Below are positions 49,144-52,195 of a stretch of DNA of 64,000 nt, in pieces (within the stretch, counting starts at the first letter, position 1; every line of letters begins with the position of its first letter). The notes under the pieces were generated by a model. That model was not told the origin of the DNA. It was given only the letters and a program-made list of their open reading frames with translations, and did no database searches. Position numbers and translations under genes: made by a program. This stretch comes from Thermoplasmata archaeon (GTDB taxonomy: Archaea; Thermoplasmatota; Thermoplasmata; Thermoplasmatales; Thermoplasmataceae). The DNA lies in the NCBI GenBank assembly GCA_021810045.1, contig JAJZJR010000002.1:62001-126000 (forward strand), given 5' to 3'.

Positions 49144-49496
49144 GGAACAAGGATTGGTGAAACAATCTTAAATGTGTTGGACAATTATTAAAATAATTAT
49201 TAAATCATAATAAGGATTGAGACCAACAGATCCTGCTTAATAACTTCGACCCACAGCAGATTGGCAGAACTAAAATGTTCAAAGCTATATTTAGTAAAGC
49301 CTATAAAAAAAGATATACTGATCTGTATGCAGTCTGACTTGGGAAATCACCCATTAATATCCGTGAGAAAATGATCCGGATAGGACAAACATTAACATTA
49401 AGCGATAATGTTCGACGTTTTTGCAACAATTACGTCATATTACACATCTATCACAATAGTAAAAATTAAATAAAGATCAACTTTAGTTAAAGAGTA
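49144..49496 (+). other. Intergenic region with AT-rich promoters and a small inverted repeat
   Basis: Between the divergent mdh and DUF835 genes. No coding pattern is seen. It contains AACATTA-AGCGA-TAATGTT at 49394-49412, itself preceded by an overlapping AACATTA copy, about 85 nt before the DUF835 gene, and the TATA-like TTAAATAAAG about 30 nt before ATG 49497. The length and the inverted repeat suggest regulation of the downstream pair. Confidence 0.5.
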
Positions 49497-50363
49497 ATGA
49501 TACTGGTTTATGATGGGAGCGGTAAACAGGAAAAACTGTTTAATGATATTATGGCTCCCACGGGAATAGAATATAGAATCCTGAATAAGATTTCAAAGGA
49601 TCTTATTGAAAAAACAAATCCCACTTCCCTAATTTATTATGTAGATGGTGCTATGAATAAGGAAGATGCCAAGCTCTTTATGGAGGAGCATAGAGGGTAT
49701 CTCCTTATCATAATGTCACAGAAGGAGCCGGATCTGGATGAAAAGATCCGTTATACCTCTGAAATGGTTATTCTGGATCCGGGCAATATTGAGGAGACAA
49801 GAAAGCGTCTCAGACAAGCCCTTTCCGGCCATGTGATGAGCAAGCTGAAGACCATTAATGATACTACCATTTATCTCGCAAAAAATGGCCTTTATCCAGG
49901 AAACACTTATTTTACCAAACCTGAATCAACCCCTGTTTTTATGTCAATGCTTATTTCCAACCGCATAAACAAGGATTCCATTCTTGTTGTTTCCCGATTC
50001 AATCTTAAGCTTGAAATGCCTGAAATCCTCAACGACGATAATTTCATCTGGGTAACTGATTCCATGGGGGCTCAGAGAAACAGACCCGTTAATCTTACGT
50101 TTATTGTCGACTCCATAATTAAAAGGATAGCGGAGAACAAGGCGAACATTATTTTTATAGATGTATTTGATTTACTCATAGTTTACCACTCGTTCTATGA
50201 TGTGGCCAGATCCTTCGAACAGATCAAGAGCGTAGCTCTGGAAAGGAATTCCTACCTCGTTCTTGTGTTTGGAGAAGGTTCAATGGATCACATACAGTTT
50301 GGGCAGATTACCAGATACTGTCTGAACTGGAACAGGGATGCGGTGACTGACTTAGAGGAATGA
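49497..50363 (+). CDS. DUF835 domain protein
   Basis: A 288-residue soluble protein. The C-terminal 150 residues follow the DUF835 pattern of euryarchaeal signalling proteins: SILVVSRFNLKLEMPE, IWVTDSMGAQRNRPVNLTFI near 185-205, NIIFIDVFDLLIVYHSFYDV near 222-241 and YLVLVFGEGSMD near 258. The N-terminal 120 residues (MILVYDGSGKQEKLF ...) look like an alpha/beta domain, perhaps a degenerate receiver, without a phosphoacceptor motif I can confirm. It is 4 nt upstream of an ATPase gene, so both probably work together. Confidence 0.75.
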   Translation: MILVYDGSGKQEKLFNDIMAPTGIEYRILNKISKDLIEKTNPTSLIYYVDGAMNKEDAKLFMEEHRGYLLIIMSQKEPDLDEKIRYTSEMVILDPGNIEETRKRLRQALSGHVMSKLKTINDTTIYLAKNGLYPGNTYFTKPESTPVFMSMLISNRINKDSILVVSRFNLKLEMPEILNDDNFIWVTDSMGAQRNRPVNLTFIVDSIIKRIAENKANIIFIDVFDLLIVYHSFYDVARSFEQIKSVALERNSYLVLVFGEGSMDHIQFGQITRYCLNWNRDAVTDLEE

Positions 50364-50367
50364 AAAC

Positions 50368-51810
50368 ATGAAGAGAGACGGATTGATCGGCCTTCTGGAC
50401 CAGTTTTTCGATCAACAGTATGGAAGATCTCTCATTATCAAGGGAAAACCTGGAGCCGGAAAGACAACATTTGCTCTTGAATACATGGAGACTATTATGG
50501 AAAAGGTCCCAGTATGCTATCTTTCTGCACGTTTCTCTGACGAATCACTTCAACAGACATACCCCTGGCTCAAAGACGTATCAATAAGAAATCTTTCATC
50601 CTCCCTTAAAGGAGACATAGGTAACGTCAGCACCGAATCACTTCAAAAACTTGAGAGAATGATTGAAGAGGGAAAAGTGTCTAATGGAATGGAAAGTGGC
50701 CTGATTCTGAACATAACAGACCTGTTGCCTGAAGTGAGGGCACTTTATGAGTTTGTGGATTCAAACTATGGAAATGAACCACTGATCGTTATCGACTCTA
50801 TTGAAGCTCTTTCTGAAAAATACGATATAAACAATCTACTGCTCTTCTCGATGATACACTCTGATCTTGTTGAAAAGTCAGGTGCAAAGCTCATCGTTAT
50901 ACTTGAGGCAAAGGAAAACCAGAAACTGGAATATTTTTCAGATGGTGTTATCTCAATGGATTACAGCATTGAAGATGATTTCCTGGTCAGGAAAAGCATT
51001 GTTGAGAAATTGAGAGGAGTTTCCCTTGGAACAACGCCTGTTTACCTTTACTCATTGAATAATGGAAGATTCTCACCTCTGGACCAGAGACAGATTATTT
51101 ATCCGGAAAAGAAAGTAAAAATTGATAAAAAGAGCAAAAGAGAACAGTTCGAGGTCCCACTTGAGTCCGATGAACTGCAGAAACTCACAAAGACCGGTGA
51201 TAATTCTGTTCCCCTGGGTTCAGTGATAATGCTACACAGAAAAGGGAATTCCAATGTGGTGAATGATGTTGTAAACCTTGTCAAAAACAATCTCATCAAA
51301 GATGCAATTTTAGATGGCAGAGGTGTAATAGATGCAACATCAAGCAGTTATGAGACGTCAAGGATACTTGTAAACTCAATGGATTCAGACACCATGAAGC
51401 ATTACATAACTGCGGAAAAATCAAAGAGAGCAAATTCATTCGTCATCAATCTTGAAGGAAAGAGTATAGTTGAGGACTTCCCTAATGATGTTATTGATTT
51501 CTTTATGTCATCTTCGTCCAGACCGGATCTCTATTTCTTCTCTACAGATTTTCTTATGTTCACCTATGGCCCCGATTTCTTTGGGGATCTTGTAAACCTG
51601 ATAAACAGTATCAGACCAACTGGTGCAATTGTCATAATAGCTGATGATGATTATTATGAAAAAATCAGCCATTATTCAAATTTTACAATGCATTTCAAAG
51701 AAGTAAGCGGGTACGCCGTTGTAAACTCGGCACCAAAAGTCTTTTATGTTGCTATACCAGAATTCAGTGGAGAAGGATGGCCTTCTCTGGCAATGCACGA
51801 AATGGTATGA
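50368..51810 (+). CDS. RecA/KaiC-like (GvpD-type) ATPase
   Basis: A 480-residue protein with a RecA-fold ATPase: Walker A IIKGKPGAGKTTFALEYME near 23-41, CYLSARFSDESLQQTYPWL near 50-68, and the Walker B-like strand PLIVIDSIEALSEKY near 138-152. The remaining 250 residues form a second domain with alternating strands and helices (LPLGSVIMLHR-type and VIIADDDYYEKIS near 435). It resembles KaiC/GvpD-type signalling ATPases of euryarchaea. It follows the DUF835 gene by 4 nt. No gas-vesicle genes are near, so the GvpD name is only structural. Confidence 0.78.
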   Translation: MKRDGLIGLLDQFFDQQYGRSLIIKGKPGAGKTTFALEYMETIMEKVPVCYLSARFSDESLQQTYPWLKDVSIRNLSSSLKGDIGNVSTESLQKLERMIEEGKVSNGMESGLILNITDLLPEVRALYEFVDSNYGNEPLIVIDSIEALSEKYDINNLLLFSMIHSDLVEKSGAKLIVILEAKENQKLEYFSDGVISMDYSIEDDFLVRKSIVEKLRGVSLGTTPVYLYSLNNGRFSPLDQRQIIYPEKKVKIDKKSKREQFEVPLESDELQKLTKTGDNSVPLGSVIMLHRKGNSNVVNDVVNLVKNNLIKDAILDGRGVIDATSSSYETSRILVNSMDSDTMKHYITAEKSKRANSFVINLEGKSIVEDFPNDVIDFFMSSSSRPDLYFFSTDFLMFTYGPDFFGDLVNLINSIRPTGAIVIIADDDYYEKISHYSNFTMHFKEVSGYAVVNSAPKVFYVAIPEFSGEGWPSLAMHEMV

Positions 51811-51826: not shown

Positions 51827-52195
51827 TTATTTATCAGATACGTCTAGTATAATTATGTCTCTGATTGCCATCAGGGTGTCCTCATTTTCAATGTCCCTGT
51901 CTTTCAGACTGTGTTCAAGCAATTCCGAGAGCACGTCAAACACTACATCAAAAGAACGTTTGAATGCCCCTTTTATGCTCTTGCCTTCTGTGTCGCAAGT
52001 AACTATGACTCTGTTTCCGGAAACCTCGAATTCAATTGAACCGAGCATCATTTCCTCGTGTCTGTTGGCCATACGGTCTATCACGGCTTCCCTAGCAAGG
52101 TGAAACCTGTTTTTTTCCGTATCAACCGTCTTAAGTAATTCCTGTATTCTCTGAAAGGGAAGTACCATTGTGCCCTGTGAGGTTATTCTAACCAT
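51827..52195 (-). CDS. Hypothetical protein, 122 aa
   Basis: From ATG 52195 the product is MVRITSQGTMVLPFQRIQ..., with two helices, a central strand pair (MLGSIEFEVSGNRVIVTCDT) and an acidic C-terminal helix. An ATG at 52168 is also possible; longer starts would run into hemB. The fold could be an alpha/beta sensor-like domain, but I recognise no family. It is divergent from hemB with the two starts about 52 nt apart and convergent with the ATPase gene. Confidence 0.55.
   Translation of the reverse strand: MVRITSQGTMVLPFQRIQELLKTVDTEKNRFHLAREAVIDRMANRHEEMMLGSIEFEVSGNRVIVTCDTEGKSIKGAFKRSFDVVFDVLSELLEHSLKDRDIENEDTLMAIRDIIILDVSDK

Follow-up and report, generated by a model that had tools for sequence, protein, structure and literature searches.

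Signalling hubs of archaeal KaiC-like ATPases, in which a KaiC-family ATPase is accompanied by inactivated KaiC homologues, were reportedly described by Makarova et al. in 2017 (mBio 8:e01959-17). The general idea that KaiC-family ATPases with inactivated KaiC partners form archaeal signalling modules is already published, and the exact pair considered here may already be in that survey. DUF835 is already assigned in the literature as an inactivated KaiC (iKaiC) domain, with REC-DUF835 proteins occurring in Thermoplasmata (PMC5847659), and the haloarchaeal repressor GvpD depends on its p-loop for removing the activator GvpE (PMC4390858). A 2016 survey of archaeal pili found no evidence of a second component for most KaiC-like ATPases (PMC4858521), and the authors of a 2025 review of pseudo-receivers know of no published functional study of the archaeal ones (PMC12632262). 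A sequence-only reading of the present locus had held that no biochemical role is settled for proteins of these kinds; this has to be amended, as the effect of haloarchaeal GvpD is known and DUF835 has already been named an inactivated KaiC.

The locus lies in a 64,000-nt stretch of contig JAJZJR010000002.1, from an acid-loving Thermoplasmata archaeon (the window, to which all coordinates refer). Starting from the gene pair, its domain make-up, its conservation and one-way dependence, and the gene context of its relatives, all of which are direct observations, we read it as a two-gene operon for a GvpD-family KaiC-type ATPase and a dedicated accessory subunit whose ancestral target was a transcription factor, a reading to which we give a probability of roughly 0.55. 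The features are as follows:

49453-49493, + strand: putative core promoter with a TATA-like TAAAAATTAAATAAAG at 49460-49475 and a short leader (conserved in five genomes of the genus)
49497-50363, + strand: DUF835 protein gene, 288 aa, candidate accessory/adaptor subunit (ORF; PF05763, 75.2 bits; dN/dS; model pLDDT 85.9)
49497-49823, + strand: predicted N-terminal pseudo-receiver domain, residues 1-109, (beta-alpha)5 (order in the model; Foldseek match 2qxy_B; weak REC profile match)
49869-50348, + strand: DUF835 domain, residues 125-284, putatively of inactivated KaiC/RecA type, without Walker A (PF05763; Foldseek; PMC5847659)
50368-51810, + strand: GvpD-family KaiC-type ATPase gene, 480 aa (PF07088, PF20440 and PF06745; tblastn to haloarchaeal GvpD)
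50443-50466, + strand: Walker A, GKPGAGKT, residues 26-33 (G26, P28, G29, G31, K32 and T33 invariant in 32 homologues)
50794-50799, + strand: Walker B, D143-S144 (invariant in 32 homologues)
51007-51018, + strand: KLRG motif, residues 214-217, equivalent to the KxRG inter-subunit finger of KaiC (K214, R216 and G217 invariant in 32 homologues)
51151-51807, + strand: C-terminal domain, residues 262-480, a P-loop-less alpha/beta domain corresponding to the GvpD bR2 region, in a KaiC CII-like position (PF20440; Foldseek)

Both open reading frames were confirmed on the + strand, with the ATPase gene starting 4 nt downstream of the DUF835 gene as first described. Between congeners dN/dS is low in the comparisons that allowed an estimate of dS (DUF835 gene, 0.02-0.04; ATPase gene, 0.012-0.017), which indicates that both are maintained coding genes. 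The upstream neighbour, on the opposite strand, is what we take from its sequence to be a malate dehydrogenase gene; downstream lie a small convergent gene and hemB, likewise named from its sequence. The small gene (51827-52195, - strand, 122 aa), convergent with the ATPase gene, is found beside hemB in many genomes of the family and was not seen adjoining the ATPase gene in G007, G017, G028 and their congeners. It had no Pfam match and in the loci of the window's family its presence does not track that of DUF835, and it was therefore left out of the module.

The description of the second protein as a KaiC/GvpD-like ATPase was right in kind and can be made more exact. The protein matches PF07088 (GvpD_P-loop; 99.9 bits, cut-off 24), PF20440 (GvpD_bR2; 50.9 bits over residues 303-480, cut-off 27.9) and PF06745 (KaiC; 36.7 bits, cut-off 26.6), and in tblastn residues 10-235 aligned with plasmid-borne haloarchaeal genes annotated as gvpD, with an identity of 25-26% (E 2e-9 to 1e-7). 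With both GvpD Pfam domains above their cut-offs and these tblastn matches, it is a full GvpD-family protein; NCBIfam returned no above-cut-off match and a sequence search of the PDB gave only weak KaiC matches. The RecA fold, the intact Walker A and the large second domain reported earlier for this 480-residue protein were all confirmed, Walker A being kept in every relative aligned. Walker A, Walker B and the KxRG finger of a KaiC-type RecA ATPase are all present, in the first domain only, which matched KaiC in HHalign with an E-value of 1.2e-13; the second position of KLRG shows only conservative K/M-L variants among the 32 homologues, and the motif aligns with KMRG of single-domain KaiC. 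In Foldseek the model of the whole ATPase matched two-domain KaiC at E 2e-16 across >500 columns, with poor rigid superposition; the second domain of the ATPase has no P-loop, and the protein therefore lacks the two active RecA domains (CI and CII) of clock-type KaiC. No arginine triplet (RRR) occurs within the 480 residues, the nearest basic run being KSKR near residue 353. By its domains the protein is a GvpD member, and the corresponding function, ATP-dependent removal of GvpE, is putative; members of the KaiC-like family need not hydrolyse ATP, as archaeal ArlH illustrates.

The DUF835 protein was modelled with AlphaFold2 (mean pLDDT 85.9, pTM 0.76). The extra N-terminal alpha/beta domain seen in the earlier reading is real: in the model, residues 1-109 alternate strands and helices in receiver order (E2-6, H12-22, E26-29, H34-40, E44-49, H55-61, E69-74, H82-87, E89-92, H98-109), and a second alpha/beta domain comes after these units. 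Foldseek matched the N-terminal domain to the Thermotoga response regulator 2qxy_B (probability 1.00, 115 columns, TMt 0.62), and HHalign gave a weak match to true receivers (REC; P 0.001, probability 22%). The acidic pair, the phospho-acceptor Asp, the Ser/Thr and the Lys of receivers are not conserved in the window's family or in the sister families, and no Response_reg domain was found anywhere in the window's genome; since the phosphorylation positions are not conserved and the genome has no Response_reg match, 'pseudo-receiver' is the best name for what is, on the model, a predicted receiver fold without phosphorylation residues. Support for this identity comes from families f24, f32 and f33, in which a canonical receiver is fused to DUF835 in the same place as the pseudo-receiver (in L190, PF00072 at E 6e-25 and PF05763 at E 3e-37), and from a paralogous set in f5 (L094) where a DUF835 gene and a GvpD-like gene are followed by a separate receiver gene.

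The second domain matches PF05763 over residues 155-273 (cut-off 33.1), and no NCBIfam family matched the protein. Foldseek matches of the whole model include sigma54 activators, RecA and KaiC; for the DUF835 domain itself the probabilities against KaiC/RecA were 0.98-1.00, but with TM of only ~0.3-0.4 and E ~1e-3. The Walker A pattern GxxxxGKT is absent from the DUF835 proteins of all homologues examined, and the KxRG finger is also absent from DUF835. HHalign comparison of DUF835 with the ATPase domains gave no significant profile match (probability at most 5%, from shallow alignments). Profile-profile comparison was accordingly set aside as a route to KaiC descent for either DUF835 or the ATPase C-terminal domain, and the KaiC descent of DUF835 rests on the fold comparison together with the published assignment. 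Four genomes of f5 (G050, G053, G055 and G057, genus g27) carry 13 to 19 DUF835 matches each, many of them within 500-1200-aa frames, an expansion of these proteins that is specific to this lineage.

Across 37 genomes of the window's family, both genes were present in 16, the ATPase gene only in 14 and neither in 7; the DUF835 gene was never found by itself, and in 16/16 genomes with both it lies directly upstream of the ATPase gene. Sister families f5 and f6 (Aciduliprofundum/DHVE2 type) have the adjacent pair in 9/9 genomes. The expectation that the pair is conserved together in related genomes is thereby borne out, the two genes being adjacent in 25/25 genomes of the three related families that have both, and the distance between them staying between about -30 and +15 nt; among the loci sampled from other families, the best-matching DUF835 and GvpD-type genes were mostly not neighbours. 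Conservation of the pair extends across the order, and it is probably a signalling switch of an ordinary archaeal kind that has gone unstudied.

The ATPase occurs without DUF835 in 14 of the 30 family genomes that have it. With the ATPase tree rooted on f5/f6, three changes are required to account for the genomes lacking DUF835, and their grouping into one clade was rejected (AU p = 2.6e-5); because the outgroup bears the pair, this is most simply read as three losses. After loss the ATPase gene stays at the same syntenic place. Since the ATPase is kept alone after these losses and DUF835 is never alone, it is DUF835 that depends on the ATPase and not the reverse, and such one-way dependence is the signature of an accessory subunit. 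Two of the three DUF835-losing lineages have long stem branches on the ATPase tree (1.32 changes per column for G010/G028 and 0.76 for G017/G033), suggesting faster evolution after DUF835 loss. Both pair genes are split into several frames in Thermogymnomonas acidicola JCM 13583 (L174, G012:C3:16228-18395), which may reflect draft-assembly errors or pseudogenes. A 778-aa frame in L103, considered as a natural fusion of the pair, contains an in-frame TGA and was for this reason rejected.

The pair is thus deeply conserved and of signalling type, as the sequence-only reading supposed. The dedicated complex that it had also proposed is, however, not obligate, as DUF835 has been lost at least three times from lineages that retain the ATPase, and no confident interface was obtained. 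The pair was folded as one chain from L042, where the genes are naturally in frame and the intergenic TAG was read as Gln, from an alignment whose rows were largely unpaired. The individual domains were all confident (mean pLDDT 84.4) and the pTM was 0.57, so that neither protein was confidently placed on the other, a weak negative because the linker was nearly absent, each protein was present once and paired rows were few. Mirror-tree correlation for the pair was high (r = 0.94), a value obtained without a control and uninformative on contact. We also considered 127 ATPase positions fixed in 17 DUF835-bearing genomes, scoring those that differed in two or more of the three DUF835-losing lineages: these numbered 13/62 in the C-terminal domain versus 4/65 in the N-terminal domain (p = 0.018), with p of 0.09-1.0 for ten control sets of DUF835-bearing clades and 0.007-0.29 for other choices of background. 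This hints that the C-terminal domain is the contact with the DUF835 protein.

Upstream of the operon, the gap 5' of the DUF835 gene is indeed 353 nt long (49144-49496), but the regulatory inverted repeat suggested within it does not stand. Inverted repeats there are short or imperfect (the longest 15 nt, 73% complementary), and the sole conserved stretch among five genomes of the genus is ~40 bp just 5' of the start codon, which would be a core promoter with a TATA-like core. The repeats were consequently rejected as an operator, being weak and lying in a region where, within the genus, conservation is confined to this putative core promoter.

Gene context in the relatives bears on the output of the system. 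In the f5/f6 operons, genes for two winged-helix regulators, an inactive-KaiC-like protein and a single-domain KaiC come after the pair (L091, L093, L095, L097 and L098); a GvpD-type gene lies beside winged-helix genes in two other families too (L189, L195). As the sister-family pair adjoins winged-helix regulators and KaiC proteins, the system in its ancestral form probably served to control transcription. At E <= 1e-6 the winged-helix family had no match in the window's genome and a single weak match in the window's family, inside an 815-aa frame of G019. The common theme would be a nucleotide-dependent ATPase controlling a transcription factor, from which we infer the output of the window's pair. 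The proteins of ~180-230 aa encoded between the winged-helix and KaiC genes (L095 9418-9951, L097 9142-9705, L091 9167-9727, L098 7897-8562, L189 9581-10273) have a KaiC-like look and no P-loop, and the one member tested had no Pfam match; they are a possible undescribed family of inactive KaiC proteins.

In the mechanism that we propose, the ATPase would probably assemble into a ring, in which the first RecA domain is predicted to bind ATP and the P-loop-less second domain to serve as a platform for partners. The pseudo-receiver, presumably not phosphorylatable in the usual way, would be the input domain, and DUF835 would most likely dock on the ATPase and gate either the nucleotide cycle of the latter or the way it binds a target; the original target would be a transcription factor, by descent from the sister-family clusters and by analogy with GvpD. 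A narrower version, in which a ligand- or redox-sensing pseudo-receiver directly gates a KaiC-type ring as a counterpart of KaiA/CikA, with an ancestral transcription-factor output, is unlikely.

It is somewhat unlikely, although it has to be taken seriously, that the two genes are linked without contact between their products, being co-transcribed and acting in one pathway without stable binding, with DUF835 working on the target of the ATPase. Such an arrangement would sit well with the lack of a confident interface in the read-through model and with the ATPase being kept alone after three losses, and part of the adjacency is explained by the stable synteny of the family, which keeps malate dehydrogenase upstream and hemB downstream; the two genes nevertheless also adjoin each other in the sister families, where the surrounding genes are entirely different, no genome of the window's family carries DUF835 alone, and ring ATPases with inactive paralogues usually assemble. 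Contact of another sort is envisaged if the dead RecA unit of DUF835 replaces some ATPase subunits or stacks on the ring, in a structural role and not as an input. RecA/KaiC-type folds in both proteins, one active and one dead, and the enrichment of loss-associated changes in the ATPase C-terminal domain agree with this, yet that enrichment is nominal, depends on the background chosen and could be explained by relaxed evolution, and DUF835 lacks the KxRG finger; we regard a hetero-ring as improbable.

The KaiC homology of the ATPase, and the action of the archaeal KaiC-like proteins ArlH and CirA on motility, could point to a system related to the clock or to motility. This is highly improbable: no archaellum or KaiB neighbours were recognised in the pair loci read, and DUF835 is missing from G010 and G028, which we take to be Thermoplasma, an archaellated genus. 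The earlier statement that no gas-vesicle, motility or clock genes lie near the pair agrees with the loci read, in which none was recognised beside it, gvp genes included; PF00741 (the GvpA family) had no match in G000, a search in which control genomes gave none either.

Read as an ATPase with a dedicated accessory subunit, the pair is a defined two-protein system, joining an archaeal pseudo-receiver to a conserved partner of a KaiC-like ATPase, and it comes with species that have naturally lost the partner and with relatives whose clusters contain a likely DNA-binding target. It makes the proposed archaeal KaiC signalling hubs testable in vitro. The present analysis contributes a precise assignment of the domains, the pseudo-receiver among them; the finding that dependence between the genes runs in one direction, with losses that recurred; and a winged-helix context that is conserved.

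Among known systems, haloarchaeal GvpD has the same two Pfam domains as the window's ATPase, in the same order, with an intact p-loop, and is likewise an ATPase of regulatory type. The window's protein differs in being 25-26% identical, in the P-loop half only, in having no literal RRR in its C-terminal region, and in lacking gas-vesicle neighbours or an adjoining GvpE, its partner being DUF835 instead. The REC-DUF835 (REC-iKaiC) regulators of Methanomicrobia and Thermoplasmata have, as here, a receiver-like domain and then DUF835 (Galperin et al. 2018, PMC5847659). In the window, however, the receiver no longer has its phosphorylation residues and the gene goes together with that of a GvpD-type ATPase, whereas the canonical REC-DUF835 genes sampled do not adjoin GvpD. 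The pseudo-receivers of cyanobacterial KaiA and CikA, acting on KaiC/KaiB, are a further case of pseudo-receiver input to a KaiC-family ATPase, a likeness by analogy only; KaiA and CikA carry other C-terminal domains. It is with the archaeal KaiC-like signalling hubs that the window's pair shares the combination of a KaiC-family ATPase and a putatively inactivated KaiC partner.
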